From: a virus
Reading direction: 5' to 3' (one strand)
Virus record (IMG/VR): IMGVR_UViG_3300044961_000092
Coordinates: 1 to 25,316 of that record
DNA length: 25,316 nt
Below the pieces are notes generated by a model. The model did no database searches, had not been told where the DNA came from, and saw nothing but the letters and a program-made list of their open reading frames with translations. Each line of letters opens with the position of its first letter. The first letter of the stretch is position 1. The position numbers were made by a program, and so were the translations under genes. This document shows, piece after piece, positions 1 to 20,256 of this stretch.

Positions 1-630
1 GCAGCCGAGAAGCGGCGTGCATGGGATAGGCAGCGCAAGGCCGAACAACGGGCCGTGTCCGGTGGAAGTCCACCGGAAATTCCACCGGACAGTGATTTTC
101 CTCCCCTCCCTAAGCAAAAAGACCCCGAACCCCAAAAAACTCATACCCTCCCAGTTCCCCCCTCGCCCCCTACGGGGGCTCTGCCCCCCACGGGGGCCCC
201 GGCAAAGCGAGGCAACCGGCTGCCTGCCGATTGGGAGCCATCGCCTGCCCTTCTCGACTTCGCCGCAGCCGAAGGTCTCGACCAACCGGAAGCGTTGCGG
301 GAGGCGGCGAAGTTCCGCGACCACTTCCACGCTCGGGCCGGGCCGAACGGCGTGAAGCTCGATTGGGACAAGGCATTCCAAAACTGGGTCCGGAAAGCGG
401 CCGATGACAAACGAAACCACCAAGCCAGGAACGGCGGTCGCGGCCCTCAAGCCGATCGATCCTCTCGCACCGAAGACCTCGCGGCCGGCTTTTTTGGCGA
501 TCTGCCGCAACGGGCTGATCGTCGAAATGGGGGAGGCCCGGATTTTCGCGGATCGCGCACCGACGCCGGCGCAACGCTCGATCTTGGAAGCGAGGATTGG
601 CGAGTTGTCCCGCCTGCTCGGCCACCGTGA
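1..630 (+). CDS. Phage replication protein, 3' part (DnaT-like C-terminal region)
   Basis: The frame is open from base 1, so the true start lies outside the window; the GTG at 55 is only an internal codon. The visible part begins with a basic helical stretch (KRRAWDRQRKAEQR), continues with a long Pro-rich linker, and then has a compact domain (about 210-400 nt) with RLPADWEPSPALLDFA and, near its end, WDKAFQNWVRKA. That pattern is typical of the C-terminal DnaT/replisome-organiser-like domain in phage replication proteins, which bind DNA or the host helicase system. From about 404 the frame overlaps the next gene for 227 nt, and its last 70 residues look low-complexity, so this tail may be dispensable. 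Gene order (initiator then loader-like gene) resembles lambda O-P. Function is inferred from family resemblance. Confidence 0.7.
   Translation, partial: AAEKRRAWDRQRKAEQRAVSGGSPPEIPPDSDFPPLPKQKDPEPQKTHTLPVPPSPPTGALPPTGAPAKRGNRLPADWEPSPALLDFAAAEGLDQPEALREAAKFRDHFHARAGPNGVKLDWDKAFQNWVRKAADDKRNHQARNGGRGPQADRSSRTEDLAAGFFGDLPQRADRRNGGGPDFRGSRTDAGATLDLGSEDWRVVPPARPP
58..147. repeat. Iteron-like 9-nt repeats and adjacent A-rich stretch; candidate phage replication origin
   Basis: TCCGGTGGA at 58-66 and TCCACCGGA at 69-77 form a perfect inverted repeat with a 2-nt centre. A third copy, TCCACCGGA, follows at 81-89. From about 113 to 147 the sequence turns A-rich in an otherwise very GC-rich region (CAAAAAG, CCAAAAAAC). 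Lambda keeps its origin inside gene O as self-symmetric iterons next to an AT-rich stretch, so a replication gene carrying this arrangement is suggestive. The repeats also lie in the coding sequence for a Pro-rich linker (SGGSPPEIPP), so chance or coding bias remains possible. Confidence 0.4.
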
Positions 631-1099: not shown

Positions 1100-1245
1100 T
1101 CTTCCGCTACGTGCGCCTGCACGACGTGGAGCGCTGGATGCGCTGCGGCTGGCTGCCGCTCGACGGGCTCGACGGCACGCATCACGGCCACTGGTCGGTG
1201 CTGATGGCCTGGCTGTGCGACTGCCCGATGCGCGAGCCGGCATGA
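1096..1245 (+). CDS. Small phage protein, 49 aa
   Basis: A 49-residue protein reading from the GTG at 1096, whose start overlaps the previous stop (GTGA). It contains FRYVRLHDVERWMRCGW, then GTHHGHWSVLMAWLCDCP. Proteins of this size with a GW...GTHHGxxxxLMxW pattern recur beside replication genes in alphaproteobacterial phages, from memory and without a search. The last bases overlap the ATG of the next gene (ATGA), which suggests translational coupling through the whole early cluster. The two Cys residues near the end (CDC) and His pair could bind metal, but nothing proves it. Function unknown. Confidence 0.65.
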   Translation: MIFRYVRLHDVERWMRCGWLPLDGLDGTHHGHWSVLMAWLCDCPMREPA

Positions 1246-1790
1246 CGACCGCTCCGCATACCCTGCCTGCCGTCACGGTGGACGAGCTTGTCGCGCGCGT
1301 CCGGGCGTGGCGTCGGCACCGGCGCATGTCGCAGGACGAGCTATCGGAACTGGCGGGGATGGCGCCGCGGCTGTGGTCGAAGGTTGAACTGTGGCGGGCG
1401 GACGGGAGCGGGCCGGTGTCGGCGAAGCCTCCGACGCTGCGGCTGGTGATGGCGGCTCTTGACGCGATGGACGTGGGGATCGTGCTGGTTGACCTGCGAC
1501 CTGCCGAGCAATGCTCGGCTACGAGATTTTACGAGCCATTCCAAGAGGATGACGCCGTGCAGCAAGAGAAAGTCCCGCATCATTTTGCTGCTGGGCGGCG
1601 CGGCGGGCAAATCAGTTGGGCGCGGCACTCGACGGACGGTCGACCGGACCGCAGGTGGATTGCGCAGTCGCGCAAGGGCGCGAGGATGCGGTGGCAGCGC
1701 GAGCGCCAGCGCCGGCGCATGAAGCGCCAGCGCGTGAGGAGGGAGCAGGATGAGCGAGGACAGGGAAGCGCCTCCGATGGAGGAGTATGA
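1242..1790 (+). CDS. XRE-type helix-turn-helix protein with unusual C-terminal half
   Basis: The 182-aa frame starts at an ATG overlapping the previous stop. Residues about 13-75 fit a Cro/C1-type HTH: VRAWRRHRRMSQDELSELAG followed by a recognition-helix-like segment (PRLWSKVELW), so DNA binding and transcriptional control are likely. After about residue 85 the sequence changes character. The second half (AGRRGGQISWARHSTDGR and a strongly Arg-rich tail) resembles a separate family of small phage proteins beginning with an RRGG...SWA motif. A GTG at 1557 with AAGAGG eight bases before it could start that module independently. The frame may therefore be one fused protein or a protein with an internal restart. 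It overlaps the next gene by 41 nt. Confidence 0.65.
   Translation: MTTAPHTLPAVTVDELVARVRAWRRHRRMSQDELSELAGMAPRLWSKVELWRADGSGPVSAKPPTLRLVMAALDAMDVGIVLVDLRPAEQCSATRFYEPFQEDDAVQQEKVPHHFAAGRRGGQISWARHSTDGRPDRRWIAQSRKGARMRWQRERQRRRMKRQRVRREQDERGQGSASDGGV
1503..1519. repeat. Perfect 7-bp inverted repeat between the two halves of the HTH gene
   Basis: GCCGAGC and GCTCGGC flank a 3-nt centre, followed after seven bases by a TTTT run. The element sits exactly where the HTH protein changes character and just before the internal Shine-Dalgarno/GTG pair. It could be a relic terminator or a small operator. The stem is short, so function is uncertain. Confidence 0.35.
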
Positions 1791-2058
1791 TGGCCCATAT
1801 TGCGAGACGTGCCGATTCTTTGATCCTCTTCCGCTTTCTGAGGGGCACTGTCGGCGCCATGCGCCTCAGCCAATAGACGGCGGGTCGATGCTGTTGATCA
1901 ACCTCGTCGCGGAGATTGCCGGGCGTGCTGCGGGTAATCCGGATGCCGCGCAGTACGACATGCCCGGATATTCAACCCTTGCCGAAGTCGTAACGTGGCA
2001 GAAGGTCGAGGCCGCCGACTGGTGCGGCGAGCACAAGCCGCGCAAACGGCGACCATAG
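1750..2058 (+). CDS. Small Cys/His-rich probable zinc-binding phage protein
   Basis: A 102-aa protein with a strong ribosome-binding site (AGGAGG seven bases before the ATG). The Cys/His residues fall in the order CETC, HCRRH and WCGEH, i.e. CxxC...CxxH...CxxH, which looks like a structural zinc site. Short proteins with CRFF/CRFW, GxCRRxAP and DWCGE motifs are common beside replication and packaging genes in alphaproteobacterial phages; their role is not known to me. The start overlaps the HTH gene by 41 nt, so it belongs to the same early transcript. Its stop codon abuts the stop of the convergent gene on the other strand with no spacer at all. Confidence 0.75.
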   Translation: MSEDREAPPMEEYDGPYCETCRFFDPLPLSEGHCRRHAPQPIDGGSMLLINLVAEIAGRAAGNPDAAQYDMPGYSTLAEVVTWQKVEAADWCGEHKPRKRRP

Positions 2059-2301
2059 CTACCCGCTGCGCAGCCTCCTGGCGGCCCGCACGATCAGCCC
2101 GCGGATGGTGTCGGCCTCGTGCGCTAGGCCACCTGCGGCGTGCAGGCGGGCCAGCGCGTCGGCCTCGGCGCCGTCCAGATCAAGCGCGATGCGCTTGCCT
2201 CCGATGGCGCGCAGGGCCGCAAGGTGGGCTCTGGACCGCTCAGCGGCTGATGGGGCGCCAGGCTTTGGGGGGCGGCCTCTGGGGCGCTTGGCGTCGGCCA
2301 T
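2059..2301 (-). CDS. Small protein with AT-hook-like N-terminus, 80 aa (cassette gene 5)
   Basis: Reading from the ATG at 2301, this 80-aa protein starts MADAKRPRGRPPKPGAP. The PRGRPPKP segment is an AT-hook-like basic motif. It continues with a helical part (IALDLDGAEADALARLHAAG, then ADTIRGLIVRAARRL). The strand-helix-helix pattern around KRIALDLDGAEADALARL recalls ribbon-helix-helix or plasmid-type small regulators, so DNA binding is plausible but unproven. It is the last gene of the minus-strand cassette, starting one base after the stop of the upstream gene (TGA-c-ATG), so it is likely translationally coupled. It could serve as the cassette's own regulator. Upstream in-frame codons exist, but they overlap the previous gene and lack any signal. 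Confidence 0.6.
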   Translation of the reverse strand: MADAKRPRGRPPKPGAPSAAERSRAHLAALRAIGGKRIALDLDGAEADALARLHAAGGLAHEADTIRGLIVRAARRLRSG

Positions 2302-2302
2302 G

Positions 2303-3121
2303 TCAACTGGCGTCCATCCACGCCACGGGGCGGCCGAGCCGGCGCCGATAGGTGCCCAGCATCTCGACGGCGTAGGCGAGGCGGCGCGGCTGGCGGCAGT
2401 GCTGGCGCATGTCGCTCCAGTCGCGCAGCGGGATGCCGGCGATCTCGGGCAGCAGCAGCACGCGCCCATGATCGCTGCGGCGCATCTCGATCGCCTCGAT
2501 GCGGATCAGGCCCTCGACGCCGAGGATCGACATGATCTCGACCGCGGGGCGCAGCGGGATTTTCAGCCCGAGCCTGGTCGGGCTGAACCCGACCTCCGCG
2601 GATGTCAGGACGGCGGAGGGGTCGTAGCCAGTGGCGGAGCAGTCGATCGCGGAATGCTCCCAGTCCGGCGCCAGCGCTGCATGGCATGTCCGCCAGATGC
2701 GCGCGAGGTCGATCTGGCCGGACCAGAAATCGAGGTTTGCCCGGCCCGGCGCGATCTGGACCGGGGCTGGTCCGGTGATCCAGATGCCGCCCTTGCCGGC
2801 GCGCCAGGCGCCGGCGTGGAGGCGGATCGTCGCGAGCGGATCGTCGCCGCGCAGGGCCTCGCCGTCCCATGTGGTGGCGAGGCCCGCGAGGCTGGCGTAC
2901 CAGAGCGCGCCGATGACGGCGAGCGTCTCTGCGCCGTTGCGGTCCGGCTGTTCCGGGCGCCATCGTCTGGCGCCGGCGGACGCCCACTGGCGGGCATCCT
3001 CGATGACCAGGGATGGCGGGCGATCGGCTCGCCGCTCCAGGTCGCGATAGGGGGTATAGTGGCGCATGGCCCGTCTCACAGAGACCGGCCGGCGGGCCTC
3101 GGTGACGAACGAGGTGGTCAT
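2303..3121 (-). CDS. Hypothetical protein, 272 aa (cassette gene 4)
   Basis: I do not recognise this protein. Starting at the ATG at 3121 gives 272 residues beginning MTTSFVTEARRPVSVRRAMRHY, preceded by GGAGG four bases upstream. It has a basic N-terminus and well-formed beta-rich stretches (GGIWITGPAPVQIAPG; LGLKIPLRPAVEIMSILGVEG) and no signal peptide or long membrane segment. Cys residues are few. Length and composition are those of a folded soluble protein. The frame extends well upstream of 3121, but the extra residues are low-complexity and overlap the previous gene. It lies ten bases after cassette gene 3 and one base before cassette gene 5, so it is clearly part of the operon. Confidence 0.65.
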   Translation of the reverse strand: MTTSFVTEARRPVSVRRAMRHYTPYRDLERRADRPPSLVIEDARQWASAGARRWRPEQPDRNGAETLAVIGALWYASLAGLATTWDGEALRGDDPLATIRLHAGAWRAGKGGIWITGPAPVQIAPGRANLDFWSGQIDLARIWRTCHAALAPDWEHSAIDCSATGYDPSAVLTSAEVGFSPTRLGLKIPLRPAVEIMSILGVEGLIRIEAIEMRRSDHGRVLLLPEIAGIPLRDWSDMRQHCRQPRRLAYAVEMLGTYRRRLGRPVAWMDAS

Positions 3122-3131
3122 GGGGCCTCCA

Positions 3132-3677
3132 TCATGCGCCGAGCCGCCGGCCGAACTCGTCCCGCGCCCGCCGCGCGGCTTCGTACCGCTCCCGGGCGCG
3201 CCACGCCCGGGCGCGCCGCGCCTCGACGCTCTCTCCGCCGGCACGCCGCGGGTCCTCCGCGGCGCAGAGTTCGTCCATCGCGCGCTGGAGCGGCCGCTCC
3301 AGCGCATGGAGCAGATCGAGCTCGGCCTCCCTCTCCAGCACGAGGGAGGTGGCGCGGATGGTCGGCGAGCCATCCGCGCCGTGGATGATGAGGTACCTCC
3401 CGTCCGGGAGGCGCACCTCCCCATACTCGGCGGAGCATGCCGGCAGCGCCTCCTCCTCGGGAGACAGCGGCCGGATGGCCGAGCGGCGATCAGAATTGAA
3501 CGGATGGTCGAAGCGGCACACCGGGGTGCCGTCGATCGACAGGATGGCCGTGAGGGCCGGCGGCGTCGAGCTGCCCGGCAGCACGCCGTGCTGCAGGCAG
3601 TACCGGGTGGTGTAGTGGTTCAGTGCCCGGGCCTCGGTGGACCGGGCGTCGATGATGGTGAGGGTGATGGTGGTCAT
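3132..3677 (-). CDS. Hypothetical protein, 181 aa (cassette gene 3)
   Basis: I do not recognise this family. The ATG at 3677 is chosen because AAGGAG lies seven bases upstream and because the start region matches that of cassette gene 1. The N-terminal two thirds look like a compact mixed alpha/beta domain (TITLTIIDARSTEARALNHY; AILSIDGTPVCRFDHPFNSD; EYGEVRLPDGRYLIIHGADG). The last third is a long charged helix rich in Arg, Glu and Ala (LEREAELDLLHALERPLQRAM and an Arg-rich tail) that could form a coiled coil. The DNA for the helix contains a 24-nt perfect palindrome. No catalytic motif is seen; a cytoplasmic, possibly multimeric protein is my best reading. Confidence 0.65.
   Translation of the reverse strand: MTTITLTIIDARSTEARALNHYTTRYCLQHGVLPGSSTPPALTAILSIDGTPVCRFDHPFNSDRRSAIRPLSPEEEALPACSAEYGEVRLPDGRYLIIHGADGSPTIRATSLVLEREAELDLLHALERPLQRAMDELCAAEDPRRAGGESVEARRARAWRARERYEAARRARDEFGRRLGA
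3282..3305. repeat. 24-nt perfect palindrome inside cassette gene 3
   Basis: GCGCTGGAG at 3282-3290 and CTCCAGCGC at 3297-3305 are reverse complements around a self-complementary CGGCCG centre. It encodes part of a charged helix. Another inverted repeat, CCTCCCG/CGGGAGG with a 2-nt centre, lies nearby at 3396-3411. They may be protein-binding sites, mRNA structure or by-products of GC-rich repeated codons. Confidence 0.5.
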
Positions 3678-3726
3678 GGTGGTCTCCTTGCCCTGATGCC
3701 CGAGGCGGGCCTCATTGAGCGAGCGG

Positions 3727-3999
3727 TCAGTGAAAGCGGATGCCGCAGCCGGATAGCGCGGCGCGGTCGGGGAGGACGATGACCGGCAGACAATCCCAGC
3801 GCCTGCCAGCCTGAATGTAGAGGCCATCTTTGCCGGCCCGGATCATGTCGCGGTGACGCGATGTGATCCGGGTCACGCGGCCGGATGTGCCGATGTCGAC
3901 GACGCCGCCCGCGTCGATATGGGCTACGATCCGGCGATGAAGACGCCGCGCGAATGCCCAGCGGGCATACCGGCCGGGCTTCATCTGGTCGTTGGTCAT
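3727..3999 (-). CDS. Hypothetical basic protein, 90 aa (cassette gene 2)
   Basis: The ATG at 3999 has GAGGAGA four bases upstream on the minus strand and gives a 90-aa Arg-rich protein beginning MTNDQMKPGRYARW. The centre has a beta-rich segment (GGVVDIGTSGRVTRITSRHR) and then GKDGLYIQAGRRWDCLPV. The mixture of a basic helix and short strands would suit a small nucleic-acid-binding protein, but I recognise no family. It sits 155 nt after cassette gene 1, the only large gap in the operon, and that gap carries three inverted repeats; 49 nt separate it from cassette gene 3. Confidence 0.6.
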   Translation of the reverse strand: MTNDQMKPGRYARWAFARRLHRRIVAHIDAGGVVDIGTSGRVTRITSRHRDMIRAGKDGLYIQAGRRWDCLPVIVLPDRAALSGCGIRFH

Positions 4000-4024
4000 G
4001 CTGTCTCCTCGCCCGGTCCGCCCA

Positions 4025-4126
4025 GCCGGCGCGCGCCGGCAGCTCGTTGCGGATGTGATCCGCCTCTGTCGAGATCGCCCATGGGCGATCCGGAGAGGGG
4101 CGGCGGCCCCGCCGCGTGGGCGGGGC
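4025..4126. repeat. Cluster of three perfect inverted repeats in the cassette spacer
   Basis: The 4000-4154 spacer between cassette genes 1 and 2 holds three symmetric elements. A 16-nt palindrome (GCCGGCGC half) lies at 4025-4040. An 18-nt palindrome (GATCGCCCA half) lies at 4073-4090. An 8-bp stem, GCCCCGCC at 4106-4113 with GGCGGGGC at 4119-4126, has a 5-nt loop. None is followed by a T-tract on the minus strand, so a standard terminator is not supported. They could be operators, attenuator-like RNA folds or a structured RNA. Confidence 0.5.
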
Positions 4127-4154
4127 AATGGGGATGGATGCCTGATCCCGCGCG

Positions 4155-4490
4155 TCAGTCAGCCGCTGCGCGGCGGCGCAACTCCGCGAGGGCGGCGCGA
4201 TAGTTGGGCGCGCCGCCGGTGCCGCTGGCGAGATATGGGGCGTCTCCGCTGGCGATCTGCTCGTCCGTCGAGCCGGGGGCGTGCAGGCTCCAGCCACCGT
4301 CGCCGGTGTCGCTCTCGCACAGCACCAGGTCATCCGCCTCGGCCGCGTCCGCGGCGGCCATGCGCTCGGCGCGGTTGACGGCGGCGAGATGCTCGTCGCC
4401 GAGCGGAGCAGCGATGCGGCGGGCAGCGGCCCAGTCACAGTCGAAAGTGGCGGAGAAGTACGGTAGGTCGGGGGTGATGGTGATGGTCAT
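4155..4490 (-). CDS. Hypothetical acidic protein, 111 aa (cassette gene 1)
   Basis: First gene of the minus-strand cassette. The ATG at 4490 has AGGAG six bases upstream, and the frame encodes 111 residues starting MTITITPDLPYFSATFDCDW. By my count it has 18 Asp/Glu against 8 Arg/Lys, so it is clearly acidic (net about -10). The N-terminus alternates hydrophobic and polar residues like a beta-strand, the middle is helical and Ala-rich, and CESDTGDGGWSLHAPG forms a turn-rich part. No known family comes to mind. Small acidic phage proteins made early sometimes act as DNA mimics against restriction or other host proteins, but that is only a speculation here. It is transcribed from the promoter at 4541-4568. 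Confidence 0.65.
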   Translation of the reverse strand: MTITITPDLPYFSATFDCDWAAARRIAAPLGDEHLAAVNRAERMAAADAAEADDLVLCESDTGDGGWSLHAPGSTDEQIASGDAPYLASGTGGAPNYRAALAELRRRAAAD

Positions 4491-4540
4491 GGTGGTCTCC
4501 TGGGGTATTGTCGGGCCGCTTCTCCGCGCCCGGTATGAGC

Positions 4541-4568
4541 ACCATACAGGCATTTCCGTTCATGTAAA
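4541..4568 (-). promoter_or_regulatory. Sigma70-like promoter driving the minus-strand cassette
   Basis: On the minus strand, TTTACA (4568-4563, five of six consensus) is followed by a 16-nt spacer and TATGGT (4546-4541, four of six). The predicted start near 4534 leaves a leader of about 45 nt before the ATG at 4490. The surrounding bases are AT-richer than the rest of the region. The position at the head of five co-oriented genes supports the call. Confidence 0.55.
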
Positions 4569-4710
4569 CAGAAAAGATGAGGCAGCACGTTCGGGGTGTG
4601 CCAAATCGCACATCGCGTCGGCTAAGCTGTTGATCTGTCTAGGGGTCGGCGTGGTGCGTGGCGGGCAGGGGCTGCGTCGGGCAGGCTGTGCAGCGTCAAT
4701 GAGGCGCGCC
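4569..4710. other. Divergent intergenic region, part upstream of the plus-strand small gene
   Basis: The whole gap from 4491 to 4710 separates the minus cassette from the plus-strand genes. Apart from the cassette promoter, I see a short inverted repeat, TGTGC at 4597-4601 and GCACA at 4608-4612 around CAAATC, that could be a weak operator. I see no convincing promoter toward the plus strand. Confidence 0.35.
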
Positions 4711-4998
4711 ATGGACTGGGCCAAGGTCAAAGCACGCAAGCAGGGTGAGGCGTCGTTCCGCGCGTCGCGTGAGGCAGACGCATGGGCGCGCGAGCAAGGC
4801 GCGCCACCGCGCAAGGCGCAGGCATCGAAGGCTGACCTGCGGGCCATGCTCGAGCAGGCCATGGCGGCCACGCCTGGCGCTCGCGTGCGGGTCATCACGC
4901 CGTCGGCGCCCCAAGCACAGCCATCGAGGCCAGAGCCGCGCCCGGCACCGCAACGGCCGAGACAGCGCCCCGCAGGCCCGGCACCATGGGAGGAATAG
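4711..4998 (+). CDS. Hypothetical small protein, 95 aa
   Basis: The ATG at 4711 is chosen because GAGG lies six bases before it; an in-frame ATG at 4699 would add only four residues. The protein starts MDWAKVKARKQGEASFRASR, continues with a basic helical part (SKADLRAMLEQAMAATPGAR), and ends in a Pro-, Gln- and Arg-rich tail (PSRPEPRPAPQRPRQRP). The tail looks disordered. No family is recognised. It is the first plus-strand gene after the cassette and precedes the terminase genes, a place where small packaging- or regulation-related proteins are often found, but nothing in the sequence gives a function. Confidence 0.55.
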   Translation: MDWAKVKARKQGEASFRASREADAWAREQGAPPRKAQASKADLRAMLEQAMAATPGARVRVITPSAPQAQPSRPEPRPAPQRPRQRPAGPAPWEE

Positions 4999-5004
4999 GA
5001 CAGC

Positions 5005-5172
5005 ATGGCTGACGTAGTGAACGTCGTTCATCGCGCGCGCCTGAAGCGCCGTCGTCAATTCGCCAACGCCGCCAACCACTTCCAAAGGTGCGTTGACACG
5101 CCAAACGCCAAAATTACACTCGCGGTCTCGCGCGTGACACTAAGGCGTCGGCTAGCCGGCCTGCCGCAATGA
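5005..5172 (+). CDS. Possible 55-aa basic protein upstream of the terminase
   Basis: An ATG at 5005 follows a purine-rich site (GGAGGAATAGGA) and reads 55 codons to a TGA that overlaps the next ATG (ATGA). The protein is basic (MADVVNVVHRARLKRRRQF, then a helical tail ending RVTLRRRLAGLPQ). Against a real gene are its small size, a mixed third-position composition unlike its GC-rich neighbours, and a promoter-like sequence inside it. It may instead be mostly a leader/regulatory region. I keep it as a possible short gene because start, ribosome site and stop overlap all fit the local pattern. Confidence 0.35.
   Translation: MADVVNVVHRARLKRRRQFANAANHFQRCVDTPNAKITLAVSRVTLRRRLAGLPQ
5093..5120 (+). 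promoter_or_regulatory. Sigma70-like promoter ahead of the terminase genes
   Basis: TTGACA at 5093-5098 matches the -35 consensus exactly. A 16-nt A-rich spacer leads to TACACT at 5115-5120 (four of six). The predicted start near 5127 lies about 42 nt before the small-terminase ATG at 5169. It would drive packaging and virion genes. It overlaps the doubtful 55-aa frame. Confidence 0.5.
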
Positions 5173-5867
5173 GCGTAGCGAATGAGGACCGATCGTCGCG
5201 CGCCCCGCGCGGCGATGCTGGCCAAGGCTCGCCACCGTCGCCAGCCGATGCACCGCATCCCGACGCTCGGGCCATCACGGCCGCGTCACAGCGCGCGGCA
5301 CGCCGGCGCCATCCCCTGACCATCCCTGACCGCCCGCTCGGACAGCGCGTCCGCGCCTTCGTCGACATGATCGCCACCGGCGCATCCGACGACGAAGCCG
5401 CCGACGCCACCGGCATGAAGCGCAAACGCGCCCGCCTGCTGATCCTCGATCCTCGGGTCCGGGCGCTGCTGGCGGAGAGATTGGAGGTTCTGCGCGCACG
5501 CGAGAGGCCGCGCAATCTCCAGGCGCTGGTCGGCATCCGGGACGACGAGGCGCTCCGCGGGAGCGCGGCCGGCGCGAAGGCCCGCATCGATGCGGTCCGA
5601 GTGCTGGAGCGCATGGCGGAGGAGGACGAGTCGTCTACGCACGCGGGCGCGCGCGGCGGCGGGTATCGGGTAGACCTGTCCGAGGAGCCGGCCGACGCCG
5701 TGCGCGTAACGGTCGATTACGTGCGCATCGGCGGATATGCGAGCAATGTCAGCGACCGCGTGCCGAGCGCCCGGCGGAACGCGGGCGTGGTGATCGACGG
5801 CGAGGCGATCGAGGCGCCAGCCGACGCGCTGGGCGAGGGGCGTCCGGGCGGGCCGGAGCGGGGCTGA
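5169..5867 (+). CDS. Putative terminase small subunit
   Basis: A 232-aa protein immediately before the large terminase. Small terminase subunits recognise phage DNA and load the packaging motor, usually through an N-terminal helix-turn-helix and a central oligomerising helical region. Residues 60-95 (VRAFVDMIATGASDDEAADATG, then KRKRARLL) fit an HTH; residues about 97-150 are helical and charged (RALLAERLEVLRARERPRNL, ARIDAVRVLERMAEE), suiting oligomer formation. The first 50 residues and the last 40 are Pro/Ala/Gly-rich and probably disordered. Identity rests on this layout and on gene position, as small subunits diverge strongly. No good Shine-Dalgarno is visible at 5169. Confidence 0.65.
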   Translation: MSVANEDRSSRAPRGDAGQGSPPSPADAPHPDARAITAASQRAARRRHPLTIPDRPLGQRVRAFVDMIATGASDDEAADATGMKRKRARLLILDPRVRALLAERLEVLRARERPRNLQALVGIRDDEALRGSAAGAKARIDAVRVLERMAEEDESSTHAGARGGGYRVDLSEEPADAVRVTVDYVRIGGYASNVSDRVPSARRNAGVVIDGEAIEAPADALGEGRPGGPERG

Positions 5868-6128
5868 GCGGCACGCGCGGCCAGGCGATCGGCCGCGGGC
5901 CTGAGCGGCGCGCCACAGGCGGGGCCGGGGGGAAAAACGGGGCGGCTTTGCTCGACTTCCAACCCTCCCCGCGCAATTTTCCCTGCGATCTCTTGGGGCC
6001 TGTGGCGTTATTTTTGTCCTACTGGAACCTTTGTGGGTTTGCGCGTCCGTGCGCGTGTCGTGTGGGAAAGTCGGATTGATATCGTCGCGGTACGGTGCGG
6101 GATTTTTCTGTGGTGCGAAACCTTTGGG
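5868..6128. other. Gap between the terminase genes, relatively AT-rich
   Basis: About 260 nt without a convincing gene. It contains a 7-bp stem (CGCGGCC 5876-5882, GGCCGCG 5891-5897), a G-run followed by AAAAA near 5930-5945, and then a distinctly AT-richer stretch (about 5976-6035, with ATTTTT). The large-terminase frame runs back to a GTG at 6033, but those residues look non-coding. A packaging site (cos or pac) or a promoter could lie here; I cannot assign either. Confidence 0.4.
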
Positions 6129-7703
6129 ATGGGCGATCTTCAGGCGTTTCGGCCGGACGGGAAGGTGTTGCGGGCGTTCATGCGCTCGAACGCGCGTGTT
6201 CGGATCATTCGTGGTCCGATCCGGTCTGGCACGTCGTCTGCGTGTTGCCAGGAGATATATCGGCGGGCATGTGAGCAGGCAGCGGGTCCGGACGGTGTTC
6301 GGCGGACGCGATGGGCGATTGTTCGGAACACGTATGGGGAGTTGAGGCAGTCGACGCTGCTGACGTGGAAGTACTGGTTTCCGGAGAAGGAGTTCGGGCG
6401 GCTTCAGTTGGGGATGCCGATGATCCATCACTTTCGGCCGAAGGCGCACCCGGATGTGGAGAGCGAGGTGTGGTTCATGGCGCTCGACAAGGACACGGAC
6501 GTGTCGAAGCTTCGGTCGACGGAGTGGACGGGGATATGGTTCAACGAGTTGGAGTACATTCCGCGTGCGCTGTTTGACGAGGCGGAGTCGCGGGTAGGTT
6601 ATTATCCGCCGGTTCGGGATGGTGGTCCGACGTGGGCGGGGGTTTTGGCGGATTTGAACGCGCCGTCGGAGGACTGCTGGGTTGTGCAGTTGACGGGGGA
6701 GGTTTCGCTTCCGGAGTCGATGCCGGACGGGGAGCGGCAGTCGTATGTGTGGCCTGAGAACTGGGACTATTTCGTGCAGCCGCCTGGGCTGATCGAGGAT
6801 TTGGGGCCGGACGGGAAGACGATCATCGGGTATCGGATCAACCCCGAGGCGGAGAACCTGAAGTACATCCCGAAGGTGAAGCAGAAGGACGGGACGTACC
6901 TGCATACTTATTTGGAGTCGGCGCGGTCGAAGACGAAGCAGTGGATCGACTCGCGGATCATGAACCGGATTGTTCCGCCGGTTTTCGGTTCGCCGTGTCA
7001 TCCGTCGTTCCGGGTGGAGACGCATGTTGCGCAGGTTGATCTGGTGTGGGAGGCGGGGGTTCGGCTGGTTGTGTCGCTGGATTTCGGGCGTCGGCCGTTT
7101 GCGTTGTTCATGCAGATGGTGGGTCACCGGTGGCATGTGATCGCGGAGTTCCGGAAGTACGATGCGTCTGCGTCGGTTTTTGCGCCGCTGCTGCGGGCGT
7201 TCATCCGCAAGGAGTTCCCGGAGGCGTATGAAGCGTATTTCATGCGGGGCGCGACTTCGGCGATCCGGTTTGTTGGTGATCCGAAGGGGCAGGACAAGGG
7301 GCAGGCGGACGAGCGGACGGCGTATGAGGTTTTTGCGGCGCACGGGATGCGGGTGAATGCGGCGCCGATCAAGGCGACGGCGATCCGGACTCGGTTGGCG
7401 ACGGTGGACGCTGTGCTGGGGCAGATGGTGGACGGGGTTCCGAAGCTGCTGCTTTCGGCGCGGAAGGTGCCGGAACTGAAGATGGCGCTGGCTGGCGGGT
7501 ATCATTTCTCGAAGGATACGAACGAGAGCGGGGACATACTGCCGGAGAAGGACAAGTACTCGGAGCCGGCGGACTGCCTGCAGTATGGGCTGATCGACGG
7601 TGGGGAGGGGTACGTGATGACGGGTCGTGACCGGCCTGGAGTGATGCGGCCTGCGGTTTATCAGCCGAAGCGGAAGTCTTTGCGGCGTGGGAGGGCGGCG
7701 TGA
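6129..7703 (+). CDS. terL: Terminase large subunit (podovirus type)
   Basis: The 524-aa motor/nuclease cuts and pumps phage DNA into the prohead through the portal. Using the ATG at 6129, FRPDGKVLRAFMRS leads into a Walker A-position loop GPIRSGTSS (29-37). Walker B is probably GIWFNE (135-140). The C-terminal RNase H-like nuclease is marked by LDFG (Asp318), GDP (Asp384) and EPADCLQYGL (Asp482). Segments such as RDGGPTW and NAPSEDCWV are typical of this terminase family in alphaproteobacterial podophages. The normal Walker A Lys is replaced by Thr35 (ACG at 6231-6233). Codon use (many GGG, GTT, TTT) differs from the capsid genes. The frame extends to a GTG at 6033, but the added residues lack conservation-like character; the ATG has no strong ribosome site. 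Confidence 0.93.
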   Translation: MGDLQAFRPDGKVLRAFMRSNARVRIIRGPIRSGTSSACCQEIYRRACEQAAGPDGVRRTRWAIVRNTYGELRQSTLLTWKYWFPEKEFGRLQLGMPMIHHFRPKAHPDVESEVWFMALDKDTDVSKLRSTEWTGIWFNELEYIPRALFDEAESRVGYYPPVRDGGPTWAGVLADLNAPSEDCWVVQLTGEVSLPESMPDGERQSYVWPENWDYFVQPPGLIEDLGPDGKTIIGYRINPEAENLKYIPKVKQKDGTYLHTYLESARSKTKQWIDSRIMNRIVPPVFGSPCHPSFRVETHVAQVDLVWEAGVRLVVSLDFGRRPFALFMQMVGHRWHVIAEFRKYDASASVFAPLLRAFIRKEFPEAYEAYFMRGATSAIRFVGDPKGQDKGQADERTAYEVFAAHGMRVNAAPIKATAIRTRLATVDAVLGQMVDGVPKLLLSARKVPELKMALAGGYHFSKDTNESGDILPEKDKYSEPADCLQYGLIDGGEGYVMTGRDRPGVMRPAVYQPKRKSLRRGRAA

Positions 7704-7948
7704 GCGCTGATGTGGTGAAGCTGCGCGAGGACGAGAGCAGCCGCGTCGAGCGCTCCGACATGGAGGAGATGCTGGGCCACGCGCTCGGGCGGGCCGAGGC
7801 CGGGCTGCTTGACGGCATCCTGATCGTGCAGGTGCTCAAGAACGGCTCGGTGGTGACGAACTGGACGTTCGACGCGGCGAAGATGCCTGCGACGCTGATC
7901 TACGCGCTGGAGCGGCTGAAGCACGACCTGCTGGCGGCGCAGTCATGA
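7700..7948 (+). CDS. Small phage protein, 82 aa
   Basis: A GTG start overlaps the terminase stop (GTGA), with GGGAGG five bases upstream. The 82-aa protein is acidic in its N-terminal half (REDESSRVERSDMEEML), then has a short beta-hairpin-like part (GILIVQVLKNGSVVTNWTF) and a C-terminal helix (PATLIYALERLKHDLL). It probably folds as a small alpha/beta domain. Similar-size proteins with a hydrophobic strand pair and a helix that mentions an identity such as LERLKHDLL lie between terminase and portal genes in related phages, with no role known to me. The last codons overlap the next ATG. Confidence 0.65.
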   Translation: MSADVVKLREDESSRVERSDMEEMLGHALGRAEAGLLDGILIVQVLKNGSVVTNWTFDAAKMPATLIYALERLKHDLLAAQS

Positions 7949-8406
7949 CCGGCGGTTCTGAGCGCCTGGCGGCCTACGCGCCATCGTTCTGGATGGTGGT
8001 GTTCGACCGCTCGTCGACGAAGTGGTGGATCGACCGACTGGCGTGGGGGAAGTGGAAGCACGTCTCGGCGATCGGGTACTTCGCGGACGCGCGGGTGTGG
8101 GCGGAGGTTCATCCGACGCTGGCCGGGCTGTCGCTGCGTGTGTGGCCGCGGGACGGCGGGCCTGAGGCGGTGCTGTCGCATCTGACGGGCGCCGGGCGGG
8201 GCGTGCTGCATGTGCGGCCCGGCCGTGGGCGGATGGCGCCGTGGCGGTCGTGGTGGTGCGTGCCGCTGGTGGCTGGGCTGGTGGGGCTGCGGTCGGGTGC
8301 GTTGCGGCCTGATGCGCTGTGGCGCGATCTCGTGGCCGCCGGCGCGGTTGTCGTCGCGACCGGCGACGAGGCCGCCGATGTCGCTGTTCAAGAAGCCGAA
8401 GCCTGA
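7945..8406 (+). CDS. Phage protein, 153 aa, with ordered His and Cys; possible permuted papain-like fold
   Basis: The ATG at 7945 overlaps the preceding stop. The 153 residues begin with an aromatic segment (SFWMVVFDRSSTKWWIDRL), then KWKHVSAIGYF with a His, and later APWRSWWCVPLVAGLVGLR with a Cys, followed by a helical tail. Small proteins at this locus in podophages share a His near strand two and a later Cys-Val before a helix, an order (His then Cys) reminiscent of circularly permuted NlpC/P60-like hydrolases. That is my inference from memory; no activity is proven. The protein could also be a structural accessory. Its end overlaps the following gene by 29 nt. Confidence 0.6.
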   Translation: MTGGSERLAAYAPSFWMVVFDRSSTKWWIDRLAWGKWKHVSAIGYFADARVWAEVHPTLAGLSLRVWPRDGGPEAVLSHLTGAGRGVLHVRPGRGRMAPWRSWWCVPLVAGLVGLRSGALRPDALWRDLVAAGAVVVATGDEAADVAVQEAEA

Positions 8407-8566
8407 TCCTGAACTGGAACGCCAGCGGCGGATCGCCGAAGAGGCGCGGCTTCAGACGCTGCAGGAAGACCTGGCTGACGAGACGACGACGCGAAGCCGG
8501 GTCTACGGGCGTGTGCAGCGGCAGGCGGCGATCCGGGCCGCGGGGCTCGCCGGGGCGGCGGCCTGA
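8378..8566 (+). CDS. Small charged helical protein, 62 aa
   Basis: Beginning at the ATG at 8378 (GAGG six bases upstream), 62 residues read MSLFKKPKPDPELERQRRIA and continue as one long charged helix ending in an Ala-rich tail (AAIRAAGLAGAAA). It is likely a coiled coil or a helix that packs on a larger complex. It overlaps the gene before it by 29 nt and its stop overlaps the portal start (TGATG), so it is embedded in the virion operon. Such short helical proteins just ahead of a portal gene are common in this kind of phage, with no established function that I know of. Confidence 0.6.
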   Translation: MSLFKKPKPDPELERQRRIAEEARLQTLQEDLADETTTRSRVYGRVQRQAAIRAAGLAGAAA

Positions 8567-10173
8567 TGGCGGACAAGTACGACAAGGAGCAGACGGACGA
8601 GGCGAAGCGGCGGTTCGAGGACTGCCGCGCGCAGAAGGAGCCGATCCGCGCGTACCTGGAAGAGGCGTACTGGTTCACGGCGCCGCAGCGGCGTCGGCAA
8701 CAGACGACGGAGTCGGCGTCGTCGACGCGGACCTCGCCGGGGGACGAGTGCGACATCGAACTGCCGCAGGAGCTGGTGACGGATTTCGCGACCTACGTGC
8801 TGCAGTCGTTCCTGAACGACAACGAGCAGTGGGTGCGGCGCATGCTGCGGCTGGCGGGCATCCCGGCTCGGGGCGACGAAGTGATCGCGGCGCGCCAGGA
8901 ACTCGCCACCGATGACCAGGCGATCTTCGACGAGATCAAGGCGTCGAACTTCTATGAGGAGGTCGGCAAGGGCTTCGTGCCCGACATCGGACTCGGCACG
9001 GTCGGACTGCACATCGACCATGGGCCGCTCGACGGCCCGCCGGTGTGCCGTGCGGTGCCGATCCGGGAGATCGAGATCAACATCGGGCCGGACGGCTCGA
9101 TCGATGACCGCTTCATTGTGCGGCGCACGCGGTACAATCGGCTTTCGGCGGTGCTGCCGGGCGTCGAGTTGCCCGAGAAGATCGCGAAGAAGGTCAAGGA
9201 CAGCAACCGCGCCGAATGCCTGGTGAAGTGGGGCTGGTGGCGGCTGTGGGATCGCCGCGATGCCGAGACGTGGCAGTCTGTGATCCTGGTCGACGACTGC
9301 CTGGTCGAGATGGGTTCGGTGTCGGGGCCGGGCTCGTGCCCGTTCATCGTGGGCCGGTTCGGCGCGGCGCCCGAGGATGCGTTCGGCTGGGGTCCGACGC
9401 TGCAGTGCCTGCCGGGCCTGCGGTACCTCGATGAACTGCGGGCGCAGACGATCCGCGGCATCGACCTGACGGTGGCGCCGCCGACGCGCATCCCGGACAA
9501 CGGGTTCGCTGAGGGCGCCGAGTTCGACGGCTTCGAGCCGGGCGGCGTCTACCCGATGCGGCCTGGGTCGAGTGACGACATCGGGCCGATCTTCGACAAG
9601 CCCGACCTCGATCCGGCGTTCTTCGACGAAGAGCGGTGCGAGCGCCGCATGAAGCGGATGCACTTCATCGACAAGCCGGAACAGCGCGGCGACACCCCCC
9701 CGACGGCGGCGCAGTGGATGAGCGAAATCGAGTTGGGCCAGCGGCGGTTCGGCGTGCCGGGCCGGGTGTTCTGGCGCGAGTTCGTGGGGCCGTGTTTTCA
9801 GCGGTTCGCGCGGATCATGGAGGACAAGGGCCAGATCAAGCCGCCGCTGCTCGGCGGCAAGTCAGTGGCGGTCTCGGCGGTGAACCCGGCGGCGCGCGCG
9901 CAGGACATGCAGGAAGTGACCAACGCGGCGCGGGTTCTGGAAATCGGCATGAACGCCTTCCCCGAGGAAGGCAAGGCAGCCTTCGACGGCACGTCGATCC
10001 TGCGAAACCTGAACGAGAAACTGAAAAATGGCATCATCGAGTTCCGCGATCCGGCGGAGGTCCAGCAGGCGGTCGAGTTGATCTCGCAACTGATGGGCGG
10101 GCAGACGGGCGGCGTCGACGCAGCGTCCGGGGCGGTAAACCCCGCCGGCATCCTCGCGGCGGCCGGCCAATGA
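8566..10173 (+). CDS. Portal (head-tail connector) protein, T7 gp8-like
   Basis: 535 residues, essentially the length of T7 gp8 (536). The portal forms a ring at one vertex, the docking site of the terminase and the exit for DNA. Typical features are the start with a charged helix (EAKRRFEDCRAQKEPIR), an early aromatic segment (EEAYWFTAPQRRR), GFVPDIGLGTVGLHID, the PFIVGRF-type strand followed by FGWGPTLQCLPGLRYLDEL, a proline-rich stem (APPTRIPDN), and TPPTAAQWMSEIE before the C-terminal helical part. A Gly/Ala-rich tail ends the protein. It lies between small genes and the scaffold gene, as expected. Confidence is high for the family. Confidence 0.93.
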   Translation: MADKYDKEQTDEAKRRFEDCRAQKEPIRAYLEEAYWFTAPQRRRQQTTESASSTRTSPGDECDIELPQELVTDFATYVLQSFLNDNEQWVRRMLRLAGIPARGDEVIAARQELATDDQAIFDEIKASNFYEEVGKGFVPDIGLGTVGLHIDHGPLDGPPVCRAVPIREIEINIGPDGSIDDRFIVRRTRYNRLSAVLPGVELPEKIAKKVKDSNRAECLVKWGWWRLWDRRDAETWQSVILVDDCLVEMGSVSGPGSCPFIVGRFGAAPEDAFGWGPTLQCLPGLRYLDELRAQTIRGIDLTVAPPTRIPDNGFAEGAEFDGFEPGGVYPMRPGSSDDIGPIFDKPDLDPAFFDEERCERRMKRMHFIDKPEQRGDTPPTAAQWMSEIELGQRRFGVPGRVFWREFVGPCFQRFARIMEDKGQIKPPLLGGKSVAVSAVNPAARAQDMQEVTNAARVLEIGMNAFPEEGKAAFDGTSILRNLNEKLKNGIIEFRDPAEVQQAVELISQLMGGQTGGVDAASGAVNPAGILAAAGQ

Positions 10174-11171: not shown

Positions 11172-12119
11172 ATGGCCGGCATCATCACGCTCACCGAATA
11201 TGCGAAGGGCATGCCCGCTGGCATGGCGCGCGCCCTGGTCGAGCAGTTTGCCAAGGAGTCGGACATCTTCTCGGCCCTGCCTTTCGAGGGCCTGGCGGAA
11301 GGCTCCCCGACCTACGAGGGCATGCGCGAGATGGTGCTGCCTTCCGGCATGGCGTTCCGCGCCATCAACGGCGCGGCCACCAGTTCGGCCGGCAAGCTGG
11401 AAGCCTTCAGCGAGTCGACCTACGTGCTTGACCACGACATCCCGGTCGACGCGGCGATCGTTCGCCGTTGGGGCAAGGAGCGGCTGGACAAGCACACGTC
11501 GATGGGGATCACGGCCACCGGCAAGTTGTGGACCGACACGTTCTTCACCGGGAACAACTCGACGAACCCGATGGAGTTCGACGGCATCGCGCGGCGCGCC
11601 GCACGGTACTCGAACCGCACCATCCACAACTCGGCCGCCTCTGGCGGCGCCGCGCTGTCGCTCTACAACCTGGACCGCGCGATTGCCAACACCAAGAACC
11701 CGACGCACATCATCGCGTCCTGGAACCTGATGCCGCGGTTCATCCAGGCGGCGCGCACCACCTCGATCGCCGGCTTCGTCATCCAGTCCTGGGATGACGT
11801 GGGCAAGCCGAAGATGACCTACAACGCGATCCCGATCCTGTGGGGCTACGCCAAGGACAAGCATGGCGTCATCCTGCCGTTCGATCAGGTCGCGAGCGGC
11901 GGCGGCTCGGCCGTCACCACCTCCATCTACGTCGTGTCCTTCGGCGAGATGGGCATGCGCGGCATTCAGTTGAAGCCGCTCTCCTTCGAGGGTCCGTACC
12001 TGAAGGAGGACAAGATCACCTGGAACACGCACATTTCGTGGGATGTCGGCCTGGTCGACGAACACGAGTACTGCATGACCAGGCTCACCTCGATCACGGA
12101 CGCTGCGTTCGTCGCGTAA
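11172..12119 (+). CDS. Major capsid protein (HK97 fold expected)
   Basis: 315 residues, similar in size to T7 gp10A (345). It forms the icosahedral head shell. Visible landmarks of this coat family include MAGIITLTEYAKGMPAGMAR at the start, YEGMREMVLPSGMAFRAINGA, then VDAAIVRRWG, TGNNSTNPMEFDGIARRA, and a C-terminal half with PILWGYAKDKHGVILPFDQ and ITWNTHISWDVGLVDE. Codon use is strongly C-ending, as for a highly expressed gene. The ATG has a purine-rich GAGGGAC upstream; a 29-nt gap separates it from the next gene. Position after scaffold and before a cement-like protein agrees. I am confident of the assignment. Confidence 0.93.
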   Translation: MAGIITLTEYAKGMPAGMARALVEQFAKESDIFSALPFEGLAEGSPTYEGMREMVLPSGMAFRAINGAATSSAGKLEAFSESTYVLDHDIPVDAAIVRRWGKERLDKHTSMGITATGKLWTDTFFTGNNSTNPMEFDGIARRAARYSNRTIHNSAASGGAALSLYNLDRAIANTKNPTHIIASWNLMPRFIQAARTTSIAGFVIQSWDDVGKPKMTYNAIPILWGYAKDKHGVILPFDQVASGGGSAVTTSIYVVSFGEMGMRGIQLKPLSFEGPYLKEDKITWNTHISWDVGLVDEHEYCMTRLTSITDAAFVA

Positions 12120-12148
12120 GCGGCGACGCGCGACGCAGGAGCCCGAAC

Positions 12149-12568
12149 ATGATCCGCACCTACACTCCCGACGCGCTGCTCCAGTTCAAGGACAGCTATG
12201 CCGTCACGTCCGACGCGGCCGCGCAGGTCTCCTCGGCGGACAAGATCGTCGACCTGGGCCTCGCCCGGTTCGAGGGCGTCATGGTCTTCAACGTCTCGGC
12301 GATCGACATCGCCTCGGGCAACGAGACCTACGACTGCCTGATCCAGGTCTCGAACTCGGCGACGTTCGCCACCGCCTCCGACATCAAGACGGTCGCGACG
12401 CTGCGGCTCGAAGCCGCGACGCTCGGCGCGGCTGGACGGTACGAAATCCCGTTCCTGAACGTGCGCGATGGGACGGCCTATCGCTACGCGCGCATCTACA
12501 CCGATGTCGGCGGCACCACGCCGTCGATCACCTACACCGCCTACGCCCACGAACTGAAGTGGAAGTGA
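12149..12568 (+). CDS. Probable capsid cement/decoration protein (Bbp16-like)
   Basis: 139 residues right after the major capsid gene, with AGGAG upstream of the ATG at 12149. The sequence is beta-rich and Ala/Ser/Thr-rich (DALLQFKDSYAVTSDAAAQV, KIVDLGLARFEGVMVFNVSA, TYDCLIQVSNSATFATASDI, and a repeated strand pattern ending YTAYAHELKWK). This layout, a strand-rich protein with an LLxFxDxxAVT start and DLGxAR, recalls the Bordetella phage Bbp16 cement-protein family, a jelly-roll that clamps capsid subunits. Family match is from memory; the genomic position supports it. It could alternatively be another small head protein. Confidence 0.6.
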   Translation: MIRTYTPDALLQFKDSYAVTSDAAAQVSSADKIVDLGLARFEGVMVFNVSAIDIASGNETYDCLIQVSNSATFATASDIKTVATLRLEAATLGAAGRYEIPFLNVRDGTAYRYARIYTDVGGTTPSITYTAYAHELKWK

Positions 12569-19100: not shown

Positions 19101-20256
19101 AGTCGGCGGCCCGCTGAACGAACGCGAGGTCGCGGCGGTCGTGCAGCAAATCCGCACCGGCAACCCCACGGTGCTCGGCAACATCCTCGGCGGCTTGGCT
19201 GTGCTCGACAAACCGAACCGCGACGCGCTGTTCGCCGACAAGAAGCTGGTCGAGCCGCTGCTCGGCGCGGCAACCGGCGTAAACCCCACACGCGCGGCCG
19301 TTGCCGTGTCGTTCATGGAGCGCTGGCACCGCGCCGACCCGATCGGGTTCGACAAGGCGTTCGGCGCAAAGGGGCTCACGGCGGTGCAGGATTGGGAGTG
19401 GGAGAAGGACTACCTGTCGGAAGAGCAGCGCGCCAAGCGCCGCGAGGAGATGCTGTCGCTCTCGCCGCAGGCCGCCGCGGTGCGCAAGGAGCGCCTGAGC
19501 GAAGCCAAGACAAAGAGCGCCGCCATAGACGAGCGGGACATCCTGTACGGCCTGGGCAACACCTGGAACACGCCGGGGGCTCCGCCGACATGGGAGAACG
19601 CCGCGACCGCCGGCGCCACCAACGGCGCCATGGTGCAGGACTTCCGCCGGCTCTTCGCGGAGCGGTACGCGGTGACGGGCGACGAGGCGCGATCAAAGAA
19701 AGACGCGATCGAGCACATGCGCCGGGTGTGGGGGCCGTCCGCGGCGAACGGCGGGCGCATCATGAAGTTCCCGCCCGAACTGAAGGTCCCGAAGGTCGAC
19801 GACAGCCACGACTTCCTGCGGCGCGATCTCGATCGTTTCGTCTATGGCGTGCTCGGTTCCGATCGGCAGGCGAGGATCGATGCGGCCGCCATGGGCGCGC
19901 CGGTCGCACCGCAGCGCCCTCGCGTGCCGGCAACGCCGGAAGAGGCGTCCCGCATGCGCCTGGAAGGGCTGCCGCCGGGCATCGATGCGACGAAGGGCAT
20001 CACCCTCGTGGCGGATCGGGAAACGGAAACGGGCTGGGCCGCCGGGCGGCCGTCCTACCTCGTGGTGGTGTTCGACAACAATGGCATGGCCGTGCCGCTG
20101 CCCTACCGGTGGACGCCGGACGCCGACATGGCGAAGCTTGAAGCGAGCGCTCGGGCGGCCACGCTGCGCGATGCGCGCGGCGATGCCGAGATGCGGGCGC
20201 GGCGGTTCCGCCAGCAGTTGATCACGCCCGCACCGGTGCAGGGGACGATGCCGTGA
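16120..20256 (+). CDS. Internal virion protein with lytic transglycosylase domain (gp15 position)
   Basis: 1378 residues, about twice T7 gp15 (747), preceded by GAGG five bases before the ATG. Residues 1-380 are mostly helical and charged. Residues about 385-500 form an SLT-type transglycosylase: SRLAEIESSGG with the expected catalytic Glu405, then GPFQFMPGTWAQYG and LYLAHQQGAGGA. It would cleave peptidoglycan glycan strands locally during DNA ejection. From about 609 to 888 there are two tandem related repeats (see repeat entries), followed by helical regions and a small beta-rich C-terminal part (YLVVVFDNNGMAVPLP). In T7 the transglycosylase is in gp16, so its location here differs. The stop overlaps the next GTG (GTGA). 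Confidence 0.88.
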   Translation: MAEVNLGPRRFVLTEDPKQRITQAERAAPWVALGKGLERAGEGLEDIAVAQAKEEGAKSVSMDADGNPVAAPPMSAFFGRRAAEYNKHAQIAYFAEAQRKYGTVLLETAKENEGKPDAFRAGANAIRDKTLAGLPAHMVEPARQWFSDQIEQHYRGLMTRQFNRDVARNNDSLDAARVRLEREMSSLAASGGTGTPEYAAKRAEYAALGRQIVANPLTGISQERWQVWADAQEEKDIVGALAVTAQKFFEENGRDLAATDKWVREQLARPELQIDALKQARYAKQIETVVRGSAAVSAQEKKEAIEASGKVRERIAQGWNIEADEIYENVANLKRVGALGEAARLQREYENGRDAPALKGRDTRAAIGALTGGGNVTPELGAAIGAAARQYGVPAAFLSRLAEIESSGGRNLVNPNSSARGPFQFMPGTWAQYGAGGDRMSATDSAAAAARLTQANARVLRNALGREPTWGELYLAHQQGAGGASALLTNPGMRAADLVGADAVRLNGGTAGMSAGDFASLWTRKFGGGSGLGQADAPSVGVPNPAMWRQRQKQFDEGTNAYNTEVLKAGIGNATQDEYAELAERLQYVRDGDLRRRIEEHLTLAQAMGKFKGLPWDEQQRAVAEMEAALVSGELGPLGREALNAAKPQAAAATKRFVERATPLVDNAAADPVTAAAAMRAVKKAVKPDEVSKVQTRFDARFRAMLTDFDTSTKEGQATPQEFGRLTVLAPYVADIDLREKFQRLSTAREAKAEVAGFPLAEQQQIAESLDVALRGGAVPAALRPAKEALDNLVKGNTAAFVKQALPVVDNAAANPVLAAAMVAKAKEISPDDTKEVQTRYDARVRAIVADIENPKAGKPTQNELVTLTVLSPQIGDIDLAEKVQRILTTNVVVAQQAGMPVAAAQQVGAELQVRAEAGEAFPIQRAVTAAWNAQADAKDKLLAADPVTFWRNEHSMTPAPAPLDFANPDALKAAMLERQHIANLARAANEGSEVGGPLNEREVAAVVQQIRTGNPTVLGNILGGLAVLDKPNRDALFADKKLVEPLLGAATGVNPTRAAVAVSFMERWHRADPIGFDKAFGAKGLTAVQDWEWEKDYLSEEQRAKRREEMLSLSPQAAAVRKERLSEAKTKSAAIDERDILYGLGNTWNTPGAPPTWENAATAGATNGAMVQDFRRLFAERYAVTGDEARSKKDAIEHMRRVWGPSAANGGRIMKFPPELKVPKVDDSHDFLRRDLDRFVYGVLGSDRQARIDAAAMGAPVAPQRPRVPATPEEASRMRLEGLPPGIDATKGITLVADRETETGWAAGRPSYLVVVFDNNGMAVPLPYRWTPDADMAKLEASARAATLRDARGDAEMRARRFRQQLITPAPVQGTMP
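17944..18354 (+). repeat. Internal protein repeat copy 1 (about 137 codons)
   Basis: Residues about 609-745 of the transglycosylase protein. Key shared strings with copy 2 are VDNAAA-PV, VQTRFDAR (VQTRYDAR in copy 2) and the LTVLAPYVADIDL / LTVLSPQIGDIDL pair. Confidence 0.75.
18382..18783 (+). repeat. Internal protein repeat copy 2 (about 134 codons)
   Basis: Residues about 755-888 of the same protein, starting VAGFPLAEQQQ and ending EKVQRIL. It aligns end to end with copy 1. A degenerate third start (QQAGMPVAAAQQVGAEL) follows at about 18810, so the protein may have grown by repeat expansion. Confidence 0.75.

Follow-up and report, generated by a model that had tools for sequence, protein, structure and literature searches.

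A probable accessory operon at a recurrent position of variable content between the replication and terminase genes of a podovirus-like phage lineage of alphaproteobacteria

The DNA analysed here (the window) is a 25,316-base IMG/VR fragment of a podovirus-like phage with a genomic G+C content of 69%. Its replication, TerL, and head and tail genes all lie on the plus strand. Five open reading frames (g1 to g5) had been predicted on the minus strand at 2059-4490, in the interval that separates the replication module from the terminase; all five are present, and the cassette that they form is indeed opposed to the other genes. Also on the plus strand are genes for tail proteins, for an internal virion protein and for a protein that contains a transglycosylase. 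The window ends inside one uninterrupted plus-strand frame (20253-25316), which codes for at least 1,688 aa; its position after the transglycosylase protein suggests that it is probably a giant internal virion protein. The features that bear on the cassette are given below, with loci of other phages denoted by L numbers.

55-630, plus strand: replication initiator, C-terminal part
1242..1790, plus strand: HTH gene with a basic tail (HTH_31, phrog_7241), end of the replication module and left border
1750..2058, plus strand: 102-aa gene at the left edge of the slot, weak phrog_15838 match (0.0023)
2059-2301, minus strand: g5, 80 aa, weak PHROG matches
2303-3121, minus strand: g4, 272 aa, codon model, ribosome-binding site GGAGG
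3132-3677, minus strand: g3, 181 aa, codon model, ribosome-binding site AGGAG
3727-3999, minus strand: g2, 90 aa, codon model, AGGAG or GGAGG site
4060..4103, no strand assigned: inverted repeat in the g1-g2 gap, two 22-nt arms, 82% complementary, no loop and no T run
4155-4490, minus strand: g1, 111 aa, codon model, ribosome-binding site AGGAG
4541..4568, minus strand: sigma-70-like promoter match, TTTACA-16-TATGGT, facing the cassette (9/12 consensus; a consensus match only)
5093..5120, plus strand: promoter match, TTGACA-16-TACACT, facing the TerS-like and late genes (10/12 consensus)
5169..5867, plus strand: TerS-like gene, right border, homologues at the same place in L003, L005, L006, L007, L009 and L014
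6129-7703, plus strand: TerL
8566-10173, plus strand: head-tail adaptor
11172-12119, plus strand: major head protein

The left-border HTH gene has weak homology to its positional counterparts in L003 and L014, which are themselves 39% identical to one another, and the TerS-like gene on the right matches terminase-small-subunit PHROGs weakly. The stop of the 102-aa gene abuts that of g5, and no relative of this gene was found among the TerL relatives.

Long spurious ORFs are common at high G+C, and one of 427 aa (2105-3388, plus strand) runs antisense across the cassette. Coding potential was assessed with a codon model trained on the known long genes of the phage, all six frames being compared by log-odds per codon. 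The antisense ORF scores -0.27 and looks spurious rather than a real gene. For g1, g2, g3 and g4 the annotated minus-strand frame is the best at +0.06, 0.00, +0.19 and +0.13, respectively, with g3 the highest of the five genes, while the other five frames score between -0.10 and -0.81. Together with GC3 values of 0.79-0.91 and the strong ribosome-binding sites, this codon signature led to the rejection of a frame artefact for g1-g4, and the frames of g1 and g2 are confirmed by homologues found elsewhere. The weakest call of the five is g5, whose score of -0.16 is not separable from those of other frames; it has no ribosome-binding site, and it starts 1 nt past the g4 stop. That the cassette is a set of chance open frames in a G+C-rich genome rather than genes is thus extremely improbable, and is effectively refuted for g1-g4; g5 alone is weak by codon usage.

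A promoter of its own had been proposed for the cassette. A consensus match does face it, at 4568-4541, although this lies outside the 2059-4490 interval to which the prediction referred. Promoter-type matches exceed chance expectation here, with two observed in the 4.5 kb from 1700 to 6200 where 0.3 would be expected from shuffles; the second is the plus-strand site at 5093-5120, ahead of the TerS-like gene. Most promoter matches in the relatives' slots are weak. The tight spacing that had also been described holds for most gaps but not for the 155 bp between g1 and g2, where the inverted repeat at 4060-4103 may form a hairpin within the operon transcript. A consensus scan found no intrinsic terminator for the cassette, a result still compatible with factor-dependent termination, and Rfam found no RNA in the region. 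Deviant composition is common in morons, although it is not obligatory; with a G+C content of 0.67-0.76 the cassette is like the rest of the phage.

The remarks on protein composition in the original prediction are borne out: g1 is acidic (pI 4.3), g2 is basic (pI 11.4), g3 has a charged C-terminal tail, g4 is the 272-aa protein, and g5 has an AT-hook-like start, beginning MADAKRPRGRPPKP. None of the five has a significant Pfam or PADLOC match or fits a defence model, and PDB sequence searches with them gave chance-level hits only. DNA-level searches of the cassette region found nothing in phages or plasmids. The profile searches and structure predictions that had been recommended were fruitful for some of the genes: g1 and g2 fell into families and g5 had weak PHROG matches, whereas g3 and g4 proved to be orphans; g2 gave a usable model (pLDDT 80), whereas single-sequence folding of g4 was unusable (pLDDT 32).

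The g1 protein consists of an N-terminal extension and a C-terminal domain, the latter defining a small phage family with the core LVLC-SD-GDGGWSLH--GSTDEQIA-GDA. This domain is common to ten IMG/VR loci, 48-84% identical across the core. Proteins of the g2 family are about 80 aa long and start MTNEQMK; 12 relatives, 38-53% identical, were found, including one in the 68-kb Rhizobium phage RHph_X2_26. In the AlphaFold model of g2 a long helix at the N-terminus leads into a small beta sheet, and a fold search with this model returned no significant match, the top hit being an uncharacterised phage protein (E 0.075). Neither family has a match in Pfam, PHROGs or the PDB. Profiles of both detected nothing in 297 genomes of the order to which Microvirga belongs, in a search that had no positive control, and nothing was found in plasmids.

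Searches with g3 yielded no acceptable relative, with nothing in viral contigs or plasmids; its weak genome hits were rejected, as most cross stop codons. The basic g4 protein (pI 9.8) likewise has nothing in phage records, viral contigs, bacterial genome contigs or 385 alphaproteobacterial genomes, and it is a candidate effector by size alone. The PHROG matches of g5 are to phrog_4093 (1.4e-5), phrog_34333 (7e-4) and phrog_536, a ‘transcriptional regulator’ (0.019). Behind its AT-hook-like start g5 carries a segment that resembles a ribbon-helix-helix, a fold predicted from its residues; there was no Pfam ribbon-helix-helix match and nothing convincing in the PDB. It is probably a DNA-binding regulator.

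Relatives of g1 and g2 occur in two kinds of setting. In L058 the g2 relative sits in a plus-strand cassette, with minus-strand TerS and TerL on one side and, farther off on the other, a minus-strand gene for a DnaD-like helicase loader. A divergent TerS/TerL pair lies about 100 bp from the start of the g2 relative in L060; in L061 the distance is about 1.8 kb, to TerL and a neighbouring gene, again divergent. In L057, an unrelated phage, an opposite-strand cassette with a g2 relative (1943-3036) is placed between head-morphogenesis and neck genes; judged by gene order, it interrupts the head-to-neck series, a textbook moron position. A g1 relative in L068 also belongs to a cassette opposed in strand to its surroundings; on one side of it is a replication gene, and on the other, several kb off, is TerL. 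In several phages, by comparison, g1 and g2 relatives are co-oriented with their neighbours in early DNA-metabolism regions, among genes for a DNA polymerase exonuclease, helicase, DNA methyltransferase and integrase.

The two families occur together in no record except the window, many of the records being fragments. As far as has been seen, therefore, g1 and g2 are not an obligate pair, and the cassette seems to have been put together from separate pieces, not passed on whole. The suggested check for the same genes at other loci thus came out positive for relatives of g1 and g2, whereas the whole set was found nowhere else. In L068, at 7378-8237 on the minus strand, are two proteins that resemble, by eye, GcrA and the C-terminal domain of DnaA, although PHROGs did not name them as such. 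If this likeness is true, the phage might interfere with the cell cycle of its alphaproteobacterial host.

TerL relatives of the window were collected from phage records, IMG/VR and GTDB genomes. Three of the IMG/VR relatives, L005, L014 and L009, are identical to prophages of Microvirga sp. KLBC 81, Bosea sp. BK604 and Chelatococcus composti, respectively; thus the lineage takes in temperate phages of Hyphomicrobiales (alphaproteobacteria). This host placement applies to the relatives. The closest TerL relatives of L003, recorded as Microcystis phage Mwe-JY08 (PP395640.1), are Hyphomicrobiales prophages, so that its recorded cyanobacterial host is possibly wrong; the true host may be, for example, an alphaproteobacterium associated with the cyanobacterium.

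The slot, defined as the stretch from the replication-module genes to the TerS-like gene, was compared in ten non-redundant TerL relatives, its genes being called by a simple codon-model caller, some of them small and low-scoring. It is 0.9-3.4 kb long, and nine of the ten relatives have one to three minus-strand genes in it, the exception being L014, which has none. With the window included, 20 of 24 slot genes are on the minus strand, compared with one of 120 in the following 9 kb of late region (Fisher p ~1e-19, a value to be read with the relatedness of the phages and the simplicity of the gene caller in mind).

Slot genes differ from phage to phage across the ten relatives, and turnover is seen most directly between L005 and L006. 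These two are 93% identical in TerL, 81% in the TerS-like gene and 89% in a minus-strand HTH regulator gene. The gene behind the HTH gene is unrelated in the two phages: its product has a membrane/coiled-coil look in one and is DUF4145-like (E 0.001, under Pfam’s cut-off) in the other, and DNA identity ends, then resumes, around the swapped segment. Elsewhere, the L003 slot encodes a MUG113/T5orf172 protein that matches the PADLOC candidate PDC-S57 (2e-15), the HTH gene of the L006 slot has weak mad1/PDC-S70 matches, and the L010 slot contains a piece of an MPTase-PolyVal domain and an HTH gene. HTH genes are found in the slots of L005, L006, L007 and L010; the rest of the cargo consists of small HTH or unassigned proteins. 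The defence matches in the relatives are at candidate level only (PADLOC), and the window cargo has none. By this comparison the slot is a cargo (moron or diversity) hot spot, in which the position is recurrent and the content changes. The possibility that the genes are known phage families always found here, which would have counted against the original prediction, is not what is seen: the position recurs and the families do not.

Two further observations concern the surroundings of the slot. Beside it in L010 (5855-6550, plus strand) is a gene whose product carries the PEP-CTERM sorting motif (PF07589), an unusual phage cargo. Upstream of its slot, the Microvirga sp. KLBC 81 prophage L005 has another cargo site on the opposite strand (2352-5428, minus strand), which encodes a WbsX/RgpF-type glycosyltransferase (PF14307, 2e-131) together with a methyltransferase (PF08241; partial mad2 match). 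By their domains these are candidate surface-modifying lysogenic conversion genes; at the same site L006 has a DUF4236 protein instead.

The five genes probably make up an accessory operon, or moron, that occupies a diversity hot spot in this temperate podovirus-like lineage of alphaproteobacterial phages. The earlier description of the cassette as moron-like agrees with the recurrent slot of variable content and with the kin of g1 and g2 in opposite-strand mini-cassettes of unrelated phages. Replacement at the same place in relatives, by which morons are recognised, is seen across the ten relatives and in the L005/L006 swap, and the slot has the form of a hot spot, a small high-turnover locus between two conserved phage genes. 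Weighing against the accessory reading are the lack of a terminator, the ordinary composition, the mostly weak promoter matches in the relatives' slots, the want of any defence-model match among the five proteins, the small and low-scoring calls among the slot genes, and the frequent occurrence of g1 and g2 kin, co-oriented, in early regions. A promoter of its own, independent of the early and late promoters, would make the operon readable while the lytic genes are silent. Transcription would start from 4568-4541 in a lysogen or early in infection, g5 would regulate the operon, and the products of g1-g4 may target the host or rival phages. The likeliest specific role, tentatively, is to exclude other phages or to defend against them; second, and less probable, is a part in counter-defence or in taking over the host early in infection.

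Known systems offer parallels. In P2-like phages anti-phage cargo (old, tin and others) lies between gpA and gpQ (Rousset et al. 2022, PMC9122126). The present slot resembles that hot spot in being a small, variable cargo locus of a temperate phage with conserved genes on either side, for replication and for packaging or the portal, but the phage lineage is unrelated and the cassette has no known defence domain; the P2 locus lies near cos, and its cargo has been assayed against phages (PMC9122126), while the window cassette is known from its sequence alone. Closer to hand, the Mwe-JY08 slot (11599-12418, minus strand) belongs to the same lineage (TerL 58%) and has the same replication-to-TerS-like position and strand, but it carries two genes unrelated to those of the window, one for the PDC-S57 protein. 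Prophage accessory loci are often highly expressed in lysogeny (PMC7067206). Like prophage morons (PMC7067206), the cassette consists of extra genes absent from the slot of relatives, runs against the late genes and has its own promoter match; unlike typical ones, it has no terminator detectable by consensus scan, and the likeness is one of sequence.

An alternative is that the operon comprises early lytic accessory genes for counter-defence or host takeover, expressed on infection and not in the lysogen, and inverted in this lineage by a rearrangement. The early-region settings of the g1 and g2 relatives, co-oriented with exonuclease, helicase, methyltransferase and integrase genes, make this a serious rival, and the g2 relative in RHph_X2_26 is in keeping with it. 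However, the window operon and most of the relatives’ slots are opposite to all their neighbours, as are several g2 relatives, and on balance it is the less likely reading. It is more doubtful still that the cassette is the phage’s own regulatory operon, kept always at the slot for lysis-lysogeny or late-gene control. DNA-binding proteins do recur there, as the four HTH-bearing slots and g5 attest, but Mwe-JY08 has a LexA-like repressor gene elsewhere (5738-6463), the slot genes are unconserved except for the L005/L006 regulator, and the slot of L014 is without a minus-strand gene.

On the accessory reading, g3 and g4 could conceivably form, perhaps along with g1 and g2, a new multi-gene phage-exclusion or counter-defence system controlled by g5, with the slot an unreported reservoir of such systems in Hyphomicrobiales prophages, though this is a speculative extension. 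Cargo hot spots and morons are already known; an example in podovirus-like prophages of Hyphomicrobiales was not found in a limited literature search. The g1 (‘DGGWSLH’) and g2 (‘MTNEQMK’) families are without annotation in the libraries searched, and since both recur in unrelated phages, testing either would inform many genomes. The slot itself provides a map position for mining exclusion, defence and counter-defence genes in prophages of soil- and plant-associated alphaproteobacteria, an approach that would parallel the mining of the P2 and P4 hot spots.
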